A stretch of DNA of 64,000 bases from Hyphomicrobiales bacterium (GTDB taxonomy: Bacteria > Pseudomonadota > Alphaproteobacteria > Rhizobiales > Beijerinckiaceae). The notes below the pieces were generated by a model. That model made no database searches and was not told the DNA's origin. It saw only the letters and a list, made by a program, of their open reading frames with translations. Of the stretch, positions 8,838-56,266 are shown piece after piece (within the stretch, counting starts at the first letter, position 1; each line of letters opens with the position of its first letter). The position numbers and the translations under genes are program-made. The stretch is taken from assembly GCA_003963405.1 (NCBI GenBank), contig RXIY01000005.1, forward strand, positions 62,001-126,000, written 5' to 3'.

Positions 8838-9587
8838 ATGAAGATTATGCAGGCATATAAAAAATTGGGGGGTTTCCCGCTCGTCCTCTGTTCCTTGGCC
8901 TTGTTGGCCGGCGCCGCGAATGGCGCGCAACTATCCGACGTATTGCTCGGGGAATTGGCGCGGCTCAGGAGTACGGCCGGCCAGCCTTACGTCATCTGTA
9001 AAAACCAGACCTATGCGCTCTGCGCGACCGCGACCTCTTTCGTCTATCAGGAAGTCGCTTACGCGAAATGCCAGGTCAAGCGGGGCGACAGCATCAGCGC
9101 GCCGCCCCTGTATTATCCGCCGGGTACGAAGGTTCAGAAAAACATCTGCGATTATAACGCAGAAGGGGCCGGCAACGGTTACATGGTGAGCACCTACAGC
9201 CTGCCGTCATCGATTCTGAAGGATAATCCGGCGGCCAATCAGGCGCTTTATACATGCCCCGGCGGCTCCACGGCTGGCTACGCTCAATGCGATGGTGGGA
9301 CATGCTTCACGAGCACCGTTGGGAAGAGTTTTCCGGGAGTGGGGCAGCTCAAGAACGACGAGATCATGTGCTCCTGCCCCATCACGCAGGCGTCAGCTTC
9401 CAGCGCTCCCTTCGGTTTTCAGTTCGTGGGGCCTTATCCCTGCCAGCAGGAGGCTTTCAAGTTCTGCTCGCAAAACGTGCAGAATGGCAGCATCATCCCG
9501 GTTGGCGCGCCCCCCGGCGCGGGGCGCTATCTGACCATCCAGCTGACAGGCAAGAACGCCACGCTGAACGAATGTTTCATGAACTAA
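8838..9587 (+). CDS. Exported cysteine-rich protein of unknown function
   Basis: 249 residues from the ATG at 8838, which has GAGGCGAAG upstream; a longer frame from 8766 would bury the signal peptide. The signal peptide ends near AANGAQ. The mature chain has 12 cysteines spread along its length, consistent with six disulfides in a secreted protein. No known domain was recognised. It lies after another exported protein gene and a 10-bp-stem hairpin follows the stop. Confidence 0.65.
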   Translation: MKIMQAYKKLGGFPLVLCSLALLAGAANGAQLSDVLLGELARLRSTAGQPYVICKNQTYALCATATSFVYQEVAYAKCQVKRGDSISAPPLYYPPGTKVQKNICDYNAEGAGNGYMVSTYSLPSSILKDNPAANQALYTCPGGSTAGYAQCDGGTCFTSTVGKSFPGVGQLKNDEIMCSCPITQASASSAPFGFQFVGPYPCQQEAFKFCSQNVQNGSIIPVGAPPGAGRYLTIQLTGKNATLNECFMN

Positions 9588-9606
9588 GACAGACGGGAAG
9601 GAAAAT

Positions 9607-9633
9607 CCGGGCGCCACACCGACTGGCGCCCGG
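9607..9633 (+). terminator. Strong hairpin after the cysteine-rich protein gene
   Basis: Perfect 10-bp stem CCGGGCGCCA/TGGCGCCCGG with a 7-base loop, 20 bases after the stop codon. There is no T tract, so it may slow or end transcription only weakly, or stabilise the mRNA 3' end. Confidence 0.45.
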
Positions 9634-9725
9634 AAGCAGCGGACGCATTTGATCAGGCGTTGTTGCGCGCCTCGCGCAAGCGGGACCTCCGCACGCGGTT
9701 CTCACAACAAGTCTCTGGATTTGTC

Positions 9726-49047: not shown

Positions 49048-49066
49048 GGCGGCTTTTTAGGCCGCC
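49048..49066. terminator. Possible convergent hairpin between lolD and the next gene
   Basis: GGCGGC and GCCGCC (6-bp stem, 7-base loop TTTTTAG) between two convergent stop codons, overlapping the end of the minus-strand gene. T-rich on the plus side. Weak. Confidence 0.35.
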
Positions 49067-49626
49067 TTCTTCTTGTCGATGAACTGCTTCTTGTACCAGA
49101 GGCCGAAGCCGACGGTCGCCAGCACGCCGAAGAAGACAGCAATCGTCAGGTCCTTCGTGGCCGTCAGACCGACCGAGAAGGGGAAGCGGGCGACATATTC
49201 CTTGGAGCCGTCGTCGCTCTTCGCCTTCACGATGCCGATATATTTCCCCTCGTTCACGAAGTTGTGATCGAAGGTCAGCGTGCCGGTCTTGTACTTCTTC
49301 GGCGGCGAATAATATTCGGTGTTCGCCTCGAGATTCTCGTTGTCGTCCTTCTGGCCGACGTCCTTGAGGACGCGCATCTCGAGGTTCATGTCGCGCAGTT
49401 CGTCCTGCTGCGCGTCGAGGGTGATGATGGTCGGCCCCGCGTCCGGGATGTCGTCACAGAACTGCTCGCGCGACTTGAGCGGCTGATAGCCCGTGAAGCT
49501 CATCGTGTCCGGCCCGATCTTCATCAGGCATTGCCCCTGGTTGGAGCCGACGTCGCCGTGCGCGTGCGCCTGAGCCACCCAACCGACCGTCGCCAAAGTC
49601 ATGGCGACGAGAAAGCGCATCTTCAT
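49057..49626 (-). CDS. Exported, C-terminally anchored protein, possible copper (histidine-brace) protein
   Basis: 189 residues from ATG 49626, which has GGGAG 9 bases upstream. Signal peptide of about 20-22 residues; the two possible signal-peptidase sites (AQA before residue 21, AHA before 23) both leave a histidine as the mature first residue. The periplasmic domain is beta-rich ([24 protein letters not shown]) with Cys33 and Cys57 and only one other His, His121 in FDHNF. A single transmembrane helix (158-178) and a basic cytoplasmic tail follow. I recall similar proteins in methane/ammonia-oxidiser genomes but cannot name the family. Confidence 0.72.
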
Positions 49627-49992
49627 TTTCGATTTCTCCCTTAGCAATTATCTGCCGCTTCTTGGCCGAGCGGGCGCCCCTTCCGTGACCCTCGCATGGA
49701 AAGAACCGCTGGCGACCCCGAGCCCGGGCGGGCCGAGAGCCGCCTATTAGCAGCTTGTGGTTAGCATATATCAATTCAAGGGGCCGTGTCTTGCGACCTT
49801 CGGCCACACGCCAAGGCGCCCGAAAAGCAGAGAGGCGGGCAGAAGGTTTTCAGGAGTCAGAGGGCGGCGCTCCGTTAATCATGTCCTTGCGCGAAGGTCT
49901 CCATCGGTTCGCGTTCCGGTTGTCAGAATTGCGCAGGTCAAGTTAAGCTTTGGTTTACCACGGGCCTTCGCCCGTCATACCCAGAGGCCGCG
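49627..49992. other. Intergenic region
   Basis: About 365 bases between divergent genes. GGGCCTTCGCCC, a short hairpin, lies around 49962-49974 before the next start. Frames inside are short and overlapping; nothing else recognised. Confidence 0.45.
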
Positions 49993-50679
49993 ATGGGACT
50001 TGTTTCGAACCGCGCTTTCACAGGATTGACGCCAACCTCGACGGTCACGACGAGCTGGCTCGAGGAGCAGGAGGCGCTCGTCGTCTCCAAGGCCTGCGCC
50101 GGCTTCGACTCCGCCAGCGTGGCGGCGATCGGCGCGATTCTGCGGTCGATCGCCGCCGGCGAGCCAGGCGCGCTCAAGTTTCTCGTCTTCGACTTCGCGG
50201 GCGGGGACGGCGAGGCGACGGGCGCGCCGGATGGATTTGCCGAGATGGTCGCCGTCAACGCGGAACTCATCATCGATACGCCGGTGATCTCGCTCGCCTG
50301 GGCGCGCGGCGCGATGACGGGGCTCGATTTCGACTTCGCCATGCATTGCTCGGCGATCGTCGCGGAGAGCAGAGCGCGCTTTTCCTTTGCAGGCGACCCT
50401 TTCGACCTTCTCGGCCTCTATGCGGCGCTCGGACGTCGAATCGGCTTTGCGAAAGCCGAGCGGCTCATCGACAGCGACCGGGGGCTTGCGCCGCAGGAGG
50501 CGCGGGACCTCATGATCGTGAAGGACGTGGTGGCGGAAGGGCAGGGGATCGCCGGGATCGCCGCCTATCTCTCTCAGCTCGAACGGCGCTACAACGCCTC
50601 CCACGCGATCTTTCGCGCCCGGCGGATGGCGGAGCCGCCCATCGACCGCCGCCCCGTGAACGCGCCCGGCCGGCGGTAG
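49993..50679 (+). CDS. Crotonase-fold protein, probably catalytically altered
   Basis: 228 residues with an enoyl-CoA hydratase-like core: LKFLVFDFAGGDGE, DTPVISLAWARGAMTGLDFDFAMHCSAIVAES (read as DTPVISLAWARGAMTG and DFAMHCSAIVAE), and RIGFAKAERLI. The two catalytic glutamates of crotonases are not at the expected places, so it may bind an acyl group without hydrating it or be regulatory. AGAGG precedes the ATG. It converges with the GGDEF-EAL/RpfF-like operon, whose product RpfF is also a crotonase. Confidence 0.68.
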   Translation: MGLVSNRAFTGLTPTSTVTTSWLEEQEALVVSKACAGFDSASVAAIGAILRSIAAGEPGALKFLVFDFAGGDGEATGAPDGFAEMVAVNAELIIDTPVISLAWARGAMTGLDFDFAMHCSAIVAESRARFSFAGDPFDLLGLYAALGRRIGFAKAERLIDSDRGLAPQEARDLMIVKDVVAEGQGIAGIAAYLSQLERRYNASHAIFRARRMAEPPIDRRPVNAPGRR

Positions 50680-50680
50680 G

Positions 50681-52972
50681 TCAGGCGGCGCCCTCCAGTC
50701 GCGGCGCGTCGACCCACTCGTGCAAGAGCGGCGCTAGCTCCTCGATCGGGCGCGGCTTGCTGTAGAGATAGCCCTGAATGAGGAAGATGTTCTTGCTCGC
50801 CATGAAGGCGAGTTGGGCGTGCGTCTCCACGCCCTCCGCCACGAGATCGAGGTCGAGGTCGCGGGCGAGCGCGGAGATCGCGCCGATGATCGCCTGCGTC
50901 TTCGGCGAGTCATTCGCCTGGCGTGAGAAGGCCTGATCGATCTTCACCTTGTTGACCGGGAAGCGGTTGAGATAGCTCAGGCTGCTGTAGCCCGTGCCGA
51001 AATCGTCGAGCGCCAGCCGCGTCCCGAGCGCAGCGATGGCCGACAGTTTCGCCTCGACATCGGCGGCGTGAGAGATGAGGGCGGTTTCGGTGATTTCGAT
51101 TTCCAGCCGCTCGGGGGGGAGGCCGCTTTGCGCCAGCGCCTCGGCGATCCGCTCCACAATGTCGGTCTGCTGGAACTGCCGCGGCGCCAGATTGACCGCG
51201 ACGCGCACATGCGACGGCCACTGGGTCGCGTCGCGGCAGGCGCGGCGCAAGACCCAGGCGCCGATCTCGACGATGAGCCCGGTTTCCTCCGCAATGGGTA
51301 TGAAGACGCCCGGCGAGACCATTCCGTGCTCGGGGCGTCGCCAGCGCAGCAGCGCCTCCAGTGCGACAATGGCTCCTCGCCGCGAGTCGACGATGGGCTG
51401 GTAGAAAACCGTCAGCTCGTCGCGCGCCAGGGCCTCGCGCAGATCCTCTTCCATCTGCCGCTTTTCGATGAGTTCCGCCTGCATCTGCGGGATGTAATGG
51501 ACGACGCCGCCGCATGTGCGCGACTTCGCCCGATACTGCGCCAGATCGCTGCATTTCATCAGGCCGCCCGGCGTGTCGGCGTCTCCGGGCGCGACGGCGA
51601 CGCCGACGCTCGCGGCGATGGTGATGCGATGGCCGTCGATGAGAAAGGGACGCCGCATTTCATCGACGATGCGTTCGGCCAGCGCGTCCGCCTGCGGCGT
51701 TTCCTTTGCGGCGCGCATCAGCACGCAATATTCGTCGCCGCCGAGCCGCGCGACGAGCGCGGGCGCCGTGGCCGTGGCGGCGAGCCTTGCGCCGACTTCC
51801 CTGAGAAGCGCGTCGCCGACGGGGTGGCCGAGCGTGTCGTTGATCTCCTTGAAGCGATCGAGGTCGATGCTGAGCAGCGCCGCCTGAAGGCCCTCCTGCG
51901 TCAGGCGCCTCAAATCCTCGTCGAGCGCCTTTTGAAACTGGTAGCGGTTGGGGAGGCCCGTGAGGTCGTCGAAATGCGCGACGCGCTCGATTTCACGCCG
52001 CGCGTTCTCCTTCTCGGTCACGTCCTCCACAACGGTGACGAAGGCGCCGTCCCGGGCGCGGTCGCAATGAAAGTCGAAATAGCGGTCGCCCAGGCGATGC
52101 ATGAAGGCGCTGGCGCGGGGCAGGGCGGCGTGGCGCTCCCAGCGTTTCGCGAAGCGCGCCGCATCCTCCGCCGAGAGGCCCGCGCGGCGCCCAATGGCCG
52201 CGGCCAGCGCCGCGAGGCCGATGGGCGCCGCCTCCGGCGCGACGCCGAAGAATTCGACGAGGCGCCGGTTCACGACGGAAACCGCCAGGCTCGAATCGCC
52301 CATGCAGAGGCCGTGCGTCATCGAATTGAGAGCGATGGCGAACTTCTGACGCTGGCGCATGGAGTCGCGGCCGCTGCGCAGCGCCGATTCGAGATGGCCA
52401 TGCAGGAATTGCGTGGTGCGGAAGACGGACAGGGCGCCGAAAAACAGAAAGGCGGAAATGCCCCAGTACCAGACCGGGAAATTGACGAGCAGCGTGGCGG
52501 CGAGCGGCATGCAGATGCCCATCACCTGCCAGAAGACGATCGAGGGACGCGCGGCGTTGCGGCTGGCGAGATTGCCCGTGACGCCGGTCATGATGATCAC
52601 GCTGTAGTAGCTGATCATCTCTCCGGAGTGGAAGTTGAAGAGGATCGCCACCGCATAGCCCAGAAGCGTCATGAAGCCGATCGCCCCGGCCGCGTAACGG
52701 GCTTCCCACATCGCCGCGTCGGCGCGGCGCTTGTGGAGGGGGGCGCGTTGATGCGCCCAAAGGACGTTCAGCCGAACCGCGCCCAGCGCCGCCATGAACC
52801 CGGCGAGTACGAGATAATTGCGATTGCTGGTGTAAAGCCAGGCGACGACCGGAACGAGAAGGCCGGACAGGATGCCGGTGACGAGCGTATGCGTCGTATC
52901 GAACAGGGTCTCGACGAGATCGGCGTAGATTTCGGCCTCCGCCGGCGTATCGGGCGCGTTCGAAAATTTCAT
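50681..52972 (-). CDS. Membrane PAS-GGDEF-EAL protein (c-di-GMP turnover)
   Basis: About 763 residues from the ATG at 52972 (a longer frame to 53125 overlaps the upstream gene). N-terminal membrane region with several helices, then a PAS-like segment ending FVTVVEDVTEKENARREIE, GGDEF domain (active site written GGDEY in RLGGDEYCVL) and EAL domain with all key residues visible: ALEALLRW, VAVNLAPRQF, EIEITETAL, DDFGTGYSS, KIDQAF, VAEGVET. Both cyclase and phosphodiesterase halves look intact. It starts 35 bases after the RpfF-like gene and is probably cotranscribed with it. Confidence 0.9.
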   Translation of the reverse strand: MKFSNAPDTPAEAEIYADLVETLFDTTHTLVTGILSGLLVPVVAWLYTSNRNYLVLAGFMAALGAVRLNVLWAHQRAPLHKRRADAAMWEARYAAGAIGFMTLLGYAVAILFNFHSGEMISYYSVIIMTGVTGNLASRNAARPSIVFWQVMGICMPLAATLLVNFPVWYWGISAFLFFGALSVFRTTQFLHGHLESALRSGRDSMRQRQKFAIALNSMTHGLCMGDSSLAVSVVNRRLVEFFGVAPEAAPIGLAALAAAIGRRAGLSAEDAARFAKRWERHAALPRASAFMHRLGDRYFDFHCDRARDGAFVTVVEDVTEKENARREIERVAHFDDLTGLPNRYQFQKALDEDLRRLTQEGLQAALLSIDLDRFKEINDTLGHPVGDALLREVGARLAATATAPALVARLGGDEYCVLMRAAKETPQADALAERIVDEMRRPFLIDGHRITIAASVGVAVAPGDADTPGGLMKCSDLAQYRAKSRTCGGVVHYIPQMQAELIEKRQMEEDLREALARDELTVFYQPIVDSRRGAIVALEALLRWRRPEHGMVSPGVFIPIAEETGLIVEIGAWVLRRACRDATQWPSHVRVAVNLAPRQFQQTDIVERIAEALAQSGLPPERLEIEITETALISHAADVEAKLSAIAALGTRLALDDFGTGYSSLSYLNRFPVNKVKIDQAFSRQANDSPKTQAIIGAISALARDLDLDLVAEGVETHAQLAFMASKNIFLIQGYLYSKPRPIEELAPLLHEWVDAPRLEGAA

Positions 52973-53007
52973 CCTGACATCCGCATTGGCGCCGCCGCGG
53001 GCGCTGG

Positions 53008-53925
53008 TCACAGCGCCGCGAGGGCGGGCTTCTGCGCTCTTTGCGCCGGGCCGACGAGCCTTTGCTGGGCGCGGACCAGCCGCTCCATGTGGCGCAGGTC
53101 GCGCTCCTCGATCCGCGCCGAACATTCCGCCCAGAGTTCGGTGATGCGGGTCAGCTCTTCATGGGTGATCGGATGGCTGCGGCGGCGCGCTTCGGCGAGC
53201 GCCCGGCGGCGGCGCCATTTCGCGTCGCCTTCCTCCTGCATCCAGAGGGCCGCGGCTCTCCGCGCCCCGCCCGGGCCCGCAAGCTGATCGATCACCTCCA
53301 TCTCGAACATCTGCCGGCCGGTGTAGGTCTGGCCGCCCATGACGATGCGCTCCGTCAGCGCGGAGCCGACGCGGCGCGTCAGCGTCGTGACGGCGCCCAT
53401 GCCGGGGAAGGAGTTGAAGGCGACTTCCGGAAGGCCGAAAAGGGCGTTCTCTTCTGCGATGATGAAATCGAACGCCAGCGCCGCCTCCATCGCGCCGCCG
53501 AGACACTGGCCGTGAACGGCGCAGAGCGTGACGATCGGCAGATCGAGACTTTGCGAAAAGCTGTAGACGAGATCGACGCAGGCGTGCGCATAGGCGCGCA
53601 GCGTCGGGAGATCCTTGCGCCGGATCGCTCCGGCGAAAGTCGAAAGATCGCCGCCGAGCGAAAAGACGCCAGGACGCTTCGCCGCCATGACGAGATAGCG
53701 GAAAGGGAAATCCGCGACGCGCCCGGACCGCCACAGCGCGCGCAGGGAGTCGCGCATTTGCAGCAGTTCGGCGAGCATCACGGGCGTGAAGCACTGCGGC
53801 GCGTCGGCGCGGTAGTTCATCCAGATCGACGCGGTCTCGCGATGGTGCTCGATGTCGAGCGTCTCGAAGCGCCAGTTCGGAAAGTCTTCGGGATCCTTGG
53901 GGCCGGAAAAAAAGATGTCGGCCAT
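53008..53925 (-). CDS. rpfF: RpfF-family crotonase (putative DSF signal synthase)
   Basis: 305 residues. In RpfF, a crotonase of Xanthomonas and Burkholderia, a dehydratase and thioesterase make cis-2-unsaturated fatty acid signals from acyl-ACP. Here the family pattern FSLGGDLSTFAGAI, LGGAMEAALAFDFIIAEE, GLPEVAFNSFPGMGA and the C-terminal ITELW...MERLVRAQQRL are present. The two catalytic glutamates fall at 147 and 167, the same 20-residue spacing as RpfF Glu141/Glu161. CAGGAG lies upstream of ATG 53925. It precedes the GGDEF-EAL gene; a multicopper-oxidase-like gene lies upstream on the same strand. Confidence 0.85.
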   Translation of the reverse strand: MADIFFSGPKDPEDFPNWRFETLDIEHHRETASIWMNYRADAPQCFTPVMLAELLQMRDSLRALWRSGRVADFPFRYLVMAAKRPGVFSLGGDLSTFAGAIRRKDLPTLRAYAHACVDLVYSFSQSLDLPIVTLCAVHGQCLGGAMEAALAFDFIIAEENALFGLPEVAFNSFPGMGAVTTLTRRVGSALTERIVMGGQTYTGRQMFEMEVIDQLAGPGGARRAAALWMQEEGDAKWRRRRALAEARRRSHPITHEELTRITELWAECSARIEERDLRHMERLVRAQQRLVGPAQRAQKPALAAL

Positions 53926-53977
53926 GCGCGTTTCTCCTGCCGGCGGCCTCGACGCCGCTCAGAGGCGGAAACGCGCG

Positions 53978-55324
53978 TCAGCCGACCTCGAACCAGGTCG
54001 CGAGCCCGGCCGCTTCATGTTCGAGGATGTCGTCGTGTATCGCCCATTTGCCTGCCGCGTCGGCGATGAAGGACACATGTTTCGTCTTCCCTGCGGGAAT
54101 GATGACGCCGTTGCGCCAATAGGGCTCCCAGCCGTCGTCCAGATCGTGCAGCAGCCGCATCGCATGGCCATGCGCATGCATGGCGAGCGGAACCTTGGAT
54201 CTGTTGACGTATCCGAGCGTAATCGGCGTCCCTTGCTTCACCCTGAACAGGGGCGGTCCCTCATATCCCTTCGTCGCGGCGCCGTTGATGGTCCAGCCGT
54301 TCGCGCCGCTCTCGATGACGAGATCGTATTTTCTGGCGTTGTTGAGTTTGATCTCGGGCGGCAGCGACGAATTCTGCGGCAGGGAATAAATGAGCCCGCG
54401 CCGCTCCGCCTTCGCGCCCCTGGCCGTGGCGACGAGCAGCTCGCTCTCGGCGCCGCCCATGTCGCGCAGGACGACGCGCGCCTTGGCGCCTTCCGTCGGC
54501 GGCATGTCGAAGATGAGCTCGAAACGGGCGCCGGGCGCGACGGGAATGCTGCGGCGCACCGGCTCGAAGGCCTCGCAGGGTTGGCTGTCGATCGCCACGA
54601 CGAAAGGCTGCATGCCGTCGAAGGTCAGAATCATGATGCGTGCGTTCGCGAGATTGGCGAGGCGCAGCCTCACGCGCGCATTGGCGGGGAAATCGTAAGC
54701 CGCTGGCGCCGCCTTGCCGTTGACGGCGAGAAGCGGCCCGATGCGACCGGCGCCCTGCGCCTCCGCGCGGTCGCCGAAGCCGCCGTCGATGCGTCCCTGC
54801 GGGTCGAGCCGCCAGTCGTCGAGGACGAGCAGGAGATCGTGGTCAGCCGGGAGCGGCTCCGCCTCGTCGACGACGAGCAGGCCCTTCAGCCCTCGGCCCA
54901 TGAGTTCCGGCGTTTTGCCGAAGACGCTCGGCCGATAGCAGAAGAGGCCCGGCTCCGTGAGCTTGCGCCGGTAATCGAAAGCGGCGCCCGGCGCGACGGC
55001 CGCCTGCGTCAGCGGCGCGACGCCGTCCATGGCGTTCTCGCCCCGCATCCCGTGCCAATGGATCGAGGCGGGGAGGTCGAGCCTGTTGACGAAATGGACG
55101 TCCAGCGTCTGCCCTTGGTTGTAGCGGAGAACGGGGCCGGGCGTGACGCCGTCGAACCCGAGAATGTCCGTCTCTCCGGAAGAACCGATCGCCGCCTTGC
55201 CCGGCCGCGCCTCGATGAGGCGGGGGCCAGCGGGCGCGGCCGCGCGCGCCGGGAGCGGGAGAATGCTGGCGGCGACGCCGGAAAGGAAGGCGCGGCGGGT
55301 GGGCGAGGGCATGGCGGGGCGCAT
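53978..55324 (-). CDS. Tat-exported multicopper-oxidase-like protein lacking most copper ligands
   Basis: 448 residues with a twin-arginine signal (TRRAFLSG, cleavage about 28). Three cupredoxin domains of MCO type. Of the four copper-ligand motifs only HWHG (89-92) and the T2/T3 part of the third (His383/385 in MHAHGH) remain. The second motif reads LFCYRPSVF instead of YHSH, the T1 His is Leu380, and the C-terminal HCH..EHE reads HDDILEHE (430-437), so the T1 Cys is Asp. This resembles copper-free FtsP/SufI proteins, also Tat-exported. It precedes rpfF by 52 bases. Confidence 0.85.
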   Translation of the reverse strand: MRPAMPSPTRRAFLSGVAASILPLPARAAAPAGPRLIEARPGKAAIGSSGETDILGFDGVTPGPVLRYNQGQTLDVHFVNRLDLPASIHWHGMRGENAMDGVAPLTQAAVAPGAAFDYRRKLTEPGLFCYRPSVFGKTPELMGRGLKGLLVVDEAEPLPADHDLLLVLDDWRLDPQGRIDGGFGDRAEAQGAGRIGPLLAVNGKAAPAAYDFPANARVRLRLANLANARIMILTFDGMQPFVVAIDSQPCEAFEPVRRSIPVAPGARFELIFDMPPTEGAKARVVLRDMGGAESELLVATARGAKAERRGLIYSLPQNSSLPPEIKLNNARKYDLVIESGANGWTINGAATKGYEGPPLFRVKQGTPITLGYVNRSKVPLAMHAHGHAMRLLHDLDDGWEPYWRNGVIIPAGKTKHVSFIADAAGKWAIHDDILEHEAAGLATWFEVG

Positions 55325-56181: not shown

Positions 56182-56266
56182 GCGGGCGTGGCGGAACTGG
56201 TAGACGCGCCGGATTTAGGTTCCGGTGACGAAAGTCGTGGGGGTTCGACTCCCTCCGCCCGCACCA
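56182..56266 (+). tRNA. tRNA-Leu (anticodon TAG)
   Basis: 85-nt class II tRNA. Acceptor GCGGGCG pairs with CGCCCGC, followed by A and an encoded CCA. Anticodon stem CCGGA/TCCGG encloses TTTAGGT (anticodon TAG). A long variable arm (TGACGAAAGTCG region) and a canonical T arm are present. Confidence 0.97.

Follow-up and report, generated by a model that had tools for sequence, protein, structure and literature searches.

The stretch of 64,000 nucleotides analysed here (the window), whose genome is taken as a Methylocystis, encodes an RpfF-family crotonase and, directly downstream of it, a membrane PAS-GGDEF-EAL protein. Comparison of the locus between related strains indicates that a cassette made up of rpfF and its neighbour's membrane half has been replaced as one piece in at least three exchanges. 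Such a joint exchange is what matched specificities of a signal and its receptor would give, and the membrane domain is thereby indicated as the putative sensor. We consider it probable that the locus encodes a DSF/c-di-GMP cell-cell signalling circuit with a third receptor architecture.

Organization of the locus

An ORF check of the window recovered the four open reading frames of the first-pass annotation at their positions. The crotonase, the putative signal synthase, is encoded on the minus strand at 53008-53925 (305 residues, with Glu147, Glu167, the GGDL loop and FPGMG intact). The likely receptor and c-di-GMP enzyme, a protein of 763 residues in which six predicted membrane helices precede PAS, GGDEF and EAL domains, is located at 50681-52972 on the same strand; its ATG at 52972 stands 35 bases past the rpfF stop, which confirms the spacing noted before, and both genes are co-directional. 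Residues 14-205 of this protein (52358-52933, minus strand) form the membrane domain that is swapped jointly with rpfF between strains. An RpfF-related crotonase-fold protein of 228 residues, hereafter DEG, converges on the two genes from the plus strand (49993-50679). Upstream of rpfF, the exchanged stretch starts in two pairs of relatives at the spacer 53926-53977, which may hold the promoter, and beyond it lies a Tat-type MCO-like gene (53978-55324, minus strand, 448 residues). In Pfam, RpfF matches ECH_1 and ECH_2, both of them general crotonase domains; DEG matches ECH_1, the receptor PAS_7, GGDEF and EAL, and the MCO-like protein two Cu-oxidase domains.

The description of the MCO-like gene as Tat-type, directly upstream and devoid of its copper ligands was borne out. 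Its best PDB relative is the laccase 4f7k, and HWHG is retained in 31/32 rows; FCYRPS-type and HDDILEHE-type stretches are found in 32/32 rows where the laccase has WYHSH and HCHMLGHQ. We take the replaced stretches to be copper ligand positions, a loss that appears conserved across the relatives. The gene is a neighbour of the pair in Methylocystaceae, and its membership of the module was rejected, as it was not found beside the pair or trio in loci L071, L080, L126, L127 and L128.

A tRNA-Leu gene is located just past the flank of the module (56182-56266). On the other side, a 196-residue exported-looking protein (49057-49647), for which neither Pfam nor NCBIfam gave a match at E 0.001, adjoins lolD in Methylocystis and Methylosinus and is 64-92% conserved there.

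Assignment of the crotonase to the RpfF family

A profile search with 53008-53925, as the first-pass annotation had proposed, gave DSF synthases as the best matches. In the PDB, the DSF synthases 6dgn, 5fus, 3m6m and 7zq7 took the first four ranks, with E values of 4e-40 to 9e-39; the crotonase after them was DspI (5wyb), at 1e-13. Among the NCBIfam models, PRK08788 was passed with 277 bits for a cut-off of 177 and the narrow RpfF equivalog NF053515 was missed with 168 bits for a cut-off of 550. The two glutamates, Glu147 and Glu167, were present in all 34 Methylocystis and Methylosinus rows, together with the GGDL loop, and their 20-residue spacing is the one given for Glu141/Glu161 in PMC9864630.

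A tree was built from 134 RpfF-family rows, with two ordinary crotonases as outgroup. In it, the whole RpfF set was separated from these two sequences with a support of 98, and the window crotonase clustered with RpfF, not with ordinary hydratases. A clade of 33 rows (support 100) contains it, and this clade stands among synthases of the RpfR type, anchored by L251 (619.7 bits to 6dgn, a strong match also to 5fus, and an RpfR-like neighbour), and of the RpfC type, anchored by L250 (648 bits to 7zq7 and a kinase neighbour); the order of the deep branches is not fixed by this tree. The assignment of the window crotonase to the RpfF family, and not to the ordinary hydratases, is supported by these results. 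The general crotonase domains returned by Pfam would suit an ordinary enoyl-CoA hydratase standing by accident beside an unrelated c-di-GMP gene, but the PDB matches led by DSF synthases alone, the tree and the constant linkage to the receptor described below (26/26 loci) already largely contradict this explanation, which we regard as very improbable.

A divergent RpfF-like lineage was also observed (L083, L102, L103 and genus g12), in which Asp replaces the first catalytic Glu in 3/3 aligned rows. It is found in 59/67 genomes of one genus and adjoins a membrane GGDEF-EAL protein in those inspected.

The membrane receptor

The receptor follows the RpfR-like order, PAS and then GGDEF and EAL with their motif residues present, but the FI domain of an RpfR without a membrane part was not found; six predicted membrane helices are present instead, in agreement with the membrane N-terminus reported earlier. 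In the AlphaFold2 model (mean pLDDT 84.6, pTM 0.44), helices at residues 27-48, 51-76, 86-114, 118-138, 143-164 and 167-216 are followed by the PAS, GGDEF and EAL domains. Fourteen motif positions (GGDE, EAL, Asn594, Glu626, Asp656, Asp657, Lys677, Glu713 and Gln733) are constant in 30 of the 32 rows, those with an ORF long enough to include them. The claim that cyclase and phosphodiesterase motifs are intact holds for these positions, with the reservation that the cyclase motif of the window reads GGDEY, as in two other rows, and not GGDEF, the form found in 27 of the 30 rows reaching the motif. In one otherwise complete module (L279, genome G991), the receptor ORF stops after the PAS domain, with 317 residues found and no GGDEF-EAL in the ORF.

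Receptor residues 1-325 gave no sequence match in the PDB at E values up to 1, and no kinase domain was detected in the protein by Pfam. A named Pfam family for the membrane domain was rejected, since a scan of 16 members returned scattered weak matches, with at most two members per family and a best E value of 0.0014. Homology of this domain to an RpfC-like N-terminus was not found by hhalign (probability 2.8%).

Conservation and linkage of the module

The search of the window genome returned three EAL proteins and one close RpfF, and a neighbourhood of RpfF and receptor arising by chance is thus unlikely. For 133 RpfF loci, the nearest partner within 1.5 kb was a kinase matching a profile built from four RpfC-like proteins in 57 (56 when L220 and L250, the same gene entered twice in the tree and the count, are taken as one). 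Membrane GGDEF-EAL proteins account for 41 loci and other GGDEF-EAL proteins for 11; the remaining 24 had no recognised partner, in some cases (L111, L115) because the contig ends. Among the 32 loci examined of the window clade, 6 were too short downstream for the question of the partner; in those with more than 3.5 kb downstream, the membrane receptor follows RpfF in 26/26 and DEG is present in 24/26, which supports the convergent crotonase of the first-pass annotation as a real third gene. In one of the two loci lacking DEG (L071), the same genome carries it on another contig (L072); in the other (L127), the expected place of DEG is occupied by an ORF at 9164-9634, presumably transposase-like.

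In Methylocystis and Methylosinus, the trio stands mostly at one stable site between tig-clpP and lolD-lolE-proS, a position that proves little alone. The trio is found without these flanks, and without the MCO-like gene, in Rhodoblastus (L080, identical to L133), in L126 and in a Caulobacteraceae MAG (L128), so that RpfF, receptor and DEG look like a unit, and the neighbourhood extends to other genera and to Caulobacterales; a restriction to very close relatives, which would have spoken against the first-pass annotation, was not observed. The same receptor type adjoins two other RpfF lineages, partly in other gene orders (convergent or upstream): a convergent one (L085, L087, L092, L100) and the one carrying Asp (L083, L102, L103). 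Mapped on the RpfF tree, the partner label requires 6 changes, at least 5 by the starred branches.

The linkage was also observed from the side of the membrane domain. In 198 genomes of the family, 35 matches exceeded 150 bits (16 in the model, 19 outside it); 34 of them are within 3.5 kb of RpfF and the 35th adjoins a piece of RpfF at a contig end. Among weaker relatives, 10/36 matches at 80-150 bits were near RpfF and 26/36 were not, and below 80 bits 38/38 were not. In Methylocystis, 11/39 genomes (6/30 of good quality) had no RpfF match at E 1e-30, and two further genomes carry solely the divergent RpfF type.

Joint exchange of rpfF and the membrane domain

Between closely related loci, identity falls sharply over rpfF and the receptor's membrane half (48-58%) and stays at 83-100% in GGDEF-EAL, DEG and the flanking genes. 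In the Methylocystis loci L069 and L070, it is 98% for ClpP, 94% for TIG and 83% for the MCO-like protein, 48% for RpfF and 49% for the membrane domain, then 88% for PAS, 89% for GGDEF, 93% for EAL, 84% for DEG and 95% for LolE, with other flanking genes at 90-98%. The Methylosinus loci L076 and L077 show the same dip, with RpfF at 54% and the membrane domain at 56% between ClpP (96%), TIG (98%) and MCO (96%) on one side and GGDEF (99%), EAL (97%), DEG (96%) and LolE (100%) on the other (other flanks 96-100%), PAS being at 68%. A third comparison, L069 with L110, gave 58% for RpfF and 55% for the membrane domain, and 85, 90, 93, 84 and 95% for PAS, GGDEF, EAL, DEG and LolE, respectively. No dip is seen in the control pair L076/L074 (MCO 87, RpfF 90, membrane domain 93, PAS 91, GGDEF 92, EAL 87 and DEG 86%).

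In DNA profiles with 150-base windows, the left breakpoint coincides with the end of the MCO-like gene in L069/L070 and L076/L077, the stretch of L110 starting too late to show it. The right breakpoint lies near receptor residue 197 in L069/L070, 208 in L069/L110 and 288 in L076/L077; it is near the membrane/PAS border in two of the three comparisons and inside PAS in the third, where most of the PAS domain is swapped too. Synonymous distance (dS) is 1.0-3.0 inside the exchanged stretch and 0.2-0.8 outside, which suggests that the cassettes are old or imported. Fast protein evolution in place of an exchange was rejected, as the excess of change in this stretch extends to synonymous sites.

The distances of RpfF and of the membrane domain are strongly correlated once the flanks are taken into account (partial r 0.91 with 21 loci, 0/2000 permutations; 0.90 with 26 loci, 0/500 permutations). 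With the same 26 loci, the partial r of RpfF was 0.09 with PAS, -0.05 with GGDEF, -0.11 with EAL, -0.01 with DEG and 0.33 with MCO. Pairs of loci with flanks at least 92% identical were also counted, a part being scored as different below 65% identity and as the same at 75% or more: both parts differ in 15 of the 81 such pairs and are the same in 66, and no pair differs in one part alone. This count took 27 of the 32 loci, G1012, G1016, G1018, G990 and G999 missing a part; the 26-locus correlation also drops G991, whose receptor ORF ends after PAS, and the count then becomes 14 swapped and 56 same among 70 pairs. The 15 swapped pairs stem from two genomes, G135 (paired with 11 genomes) and G161 (paired with 4). 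In the backbone tree, G161 is nested with full support in a type-2 group, and the type-3 group has G135 as its sister. G135, type 3 and L110 represent three types on one close backbone, which requires two changes, and G161 adds one, hence at least three exchanges.

Nine RpfF types were distinguished at 75% identity among the 32 loci. At this threshold their match to membrane types is not strictly one-to-one, as RpfF type 1 occurs with three different membrane types and a single membrane type is shared by RpfF types 5 and 7. In genus g12, judged by RpfF identity alone, no cassette exchange was seen; the RpfF of 56 other genomes had 83-93% identity to the query. Genus g41, where EAL adjoins rpfF, was considered as a control of gene order, with matches in 6/9 genomes, too few for a test.

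Since rpfF and the membrane domain are contiguous on the DNA, they could move jointly without any matching or selection; in that case the RpfF-receptor pair would be real and the exchange would result from hitchhiking on a recombination-prone stretch. The number of independent exchanges, about three, and the weak covariation of MCO with RpfF are in agreement with such an origin. The position of the edges argues for matched specificity, as the exchanges end in the membrane/PAS region while the output half stays constant, and at the left they end at the MCO-like gene in both comparisons where the edge is visible, adjacent segments being unmoved. Taken together with the absence, among the 81 close pairs, of any that differs in one part alone, these edges make hitchhiking unlikely in our view, and matched specificity remains the preferred reading. 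The PAS domain could share in sensing, since most of it is also exchanged in L076/L077.

The second crotonase-fold protein

DEG is related to RpfF more closely than to other crotonases, with PRK08788 as best family match (59 bits, against 25.7 bits for other crotonases) and RpfF 3m6m as best PDB match (E 5e-5, against 0.005). The structural matches of its AlphaFold2 model (pLDDT 83, pTM 0.84) are crotonases, LnmF first, and five of the top ten are RpfF or DfsA chains. Conservation of the GGDL loop is lost, the window reading GGDG, and Gly (Gly134 in the window) or Ala aligns with RpfF Glu167. At positions 114 and 135, the latter one past the Glu167 column, Asp or Glu is found in 29/29 Methylocystaceae rows. 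In the DEG of Rhodoblastus (L080), the first position is Glu, whereas the second is neither Asp nor Glu. DEG has probably lost or altered its thioester chemistry. It had been called apparently inactive, which the unconserved loop and the lack of a Glu167 equivalent make likely, but the acids retained at positions 114 and 135 are also compatible with an altered activity.

Purifying selection is indicated by dN/dS values of 0.08-0.20 in 10 of 11 pairs, which overlap and include two with dS above 1.3; the remaining pair, with few changes, gave 0.50. A decaying pseudogene was rejected on these values. The idea of a free-standing DEG family was also discarded, as the 23 places outside the window found by its profile in 385 genomes of the class, a sample with few genomes of the window's clade, all overlap RpfF genes.

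DEG distances covary with those of GGDEF (partial r 0.81) and EAL (0.67) and not with those of RpfF, and adjacency may be behind part of this covariation. Being independent of the cassette type, DEG probably acts on a constant part of the system, the GGDEF-EAL output or the acyl/ACP supply, and not as a type-matched subunit of RpfF. This role is the weakest step of the explanation proposed below.

Proposed circuit and relation to known DSF systems

We propose that RpfF would dehydrate and hydrolyse 3-hydroxyacyl-ACP into a cis-2-unsaturated fatty acid, which would get to the membrane and bind the six-helix domain of the receptor. From there, the linker helix and then PAS would relay the binding to the half with GGDEF and EAL, so that c-di-GMP would change and, with it, attachment or biofilm; DEG would regulate the constant part of the system. 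The DSF circuit with a different receptor architecture that the first-pass annotation had suggested thus retains its RpfF, its membrane receptor, its conserved neighbourhood and its third gene, and loses the MCO-like gene. Several observations weigh against the circuit: the missed NF053515 cut-off, the weaker relatives of the membrane domain away from RpfF, the Methylocystis genomes with no RpfF match, the constancy of RpfF in genus g12, the imperfect match of RpfF to membrane types and the small number of independent exchanges. Since the variants of RpfF are each accompanied by a particular membrane domain, different acids would be expected to be made and heard by strains whose cassettes differ. 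The full form of this hypothesis, a pherotype-like DSF system of methanotrophic Alphaproteobacteria in which matched cassettes of synthase and membrane sensor are exchanged next to a constant GGDEF-EAL half and an RpfF-related third protein, and in which closely related strains thereby use different fatty-acid dialects, heard by membrane fatty-acid receptors of a new class, is put forward tentatively, with chances that we place a little short of even.

The RpfF/RpfR systems of Burkholderia and Cronobacter likewise have an RpfF-family synthase beside a PAS-GGDEF-EAL protein and couple a fatty acid to c-di-GMP, as is supposed here. According to PMC6361424, which describes the chemistry of RpfF and RpfR, the N-terminal FI domain of RpfR binds RpfF and its gene is convergent with rpfF. 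In contrast, the window has a six-helix membrane domain in place of FI, co-directional genes and an additional crotonase-fold gene. An RpfF-family synthase with a membrane sensor is also found in the RpfF/RpfC/RpfG systems of Xanthomonas and Stenotrophomonas, where the N-terminal region of RpfC senses or binds DSF (PMC5391125); however, RpfC is a histidine kinase, and for the N-terminal membrane part of RpfC-like proteins hhalign gave no sequence relation to the domain of the window. By analogy, the module would combine an output like that of RpfF/RpfR with a membrane sensor like that of RpfC, its receptor being a member of neither family.

The closest precedent for the cassettes is the rpf-1/rpf-2 variation of Stenotrophomonas maltophilia, in which the RpfF variant is fully associated with the sensor N-terminus and recombination breakpoints are predicted (PMC4517397). 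There, two variants occur with RpfC, whereas here nine RpfF types among 32 loci are joined to another class of receptor with a constant GGDEF-EAL half. PMC4517397 also suggests an unspecific thioesterase activity of RpfF proteins, and the crotonase could accordingly make or edit membrane fatty acids as an unspecific acyl-ACP thioesterase/dehydratase, the GGDEF-EAL protein sensing the state of the membrane with no cell-cell signal involved; the location of the sensor domain in the membrane and the missed NF053515 cut-off are in agreement with this. This explanation is rendered improbable by the presence of a signalling partner (a kinase or a GGDEF-EAL protein of the RpfR-like or membrane kind) at 109/133 RpfF loci and by an allelic exchange that resembles known signal-receptor pairs.

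A search of open-licence PMC papers found no account of this architecture. If the proposed circuit is true, DSF signalling reaches the methane-oxidising Alphaproteobacteria with a third receptor architecture, and a membrane domain absent from Pfam becomes a candidate for fatty-acid sensing. The natural swaps would separate signal specificity from c-di-GMP output, making the part of a DSF receptor that sets specificity directly testable.

In many of the sampled Alphaproteobacteria (L095, L208, L183 and others), RpfF is convergent with an RpfC-like hybrid kinase, and, at the place of RpfG, these loci often have a protein whose C-terminal portion is GGDEF-EAL or kinase-like.
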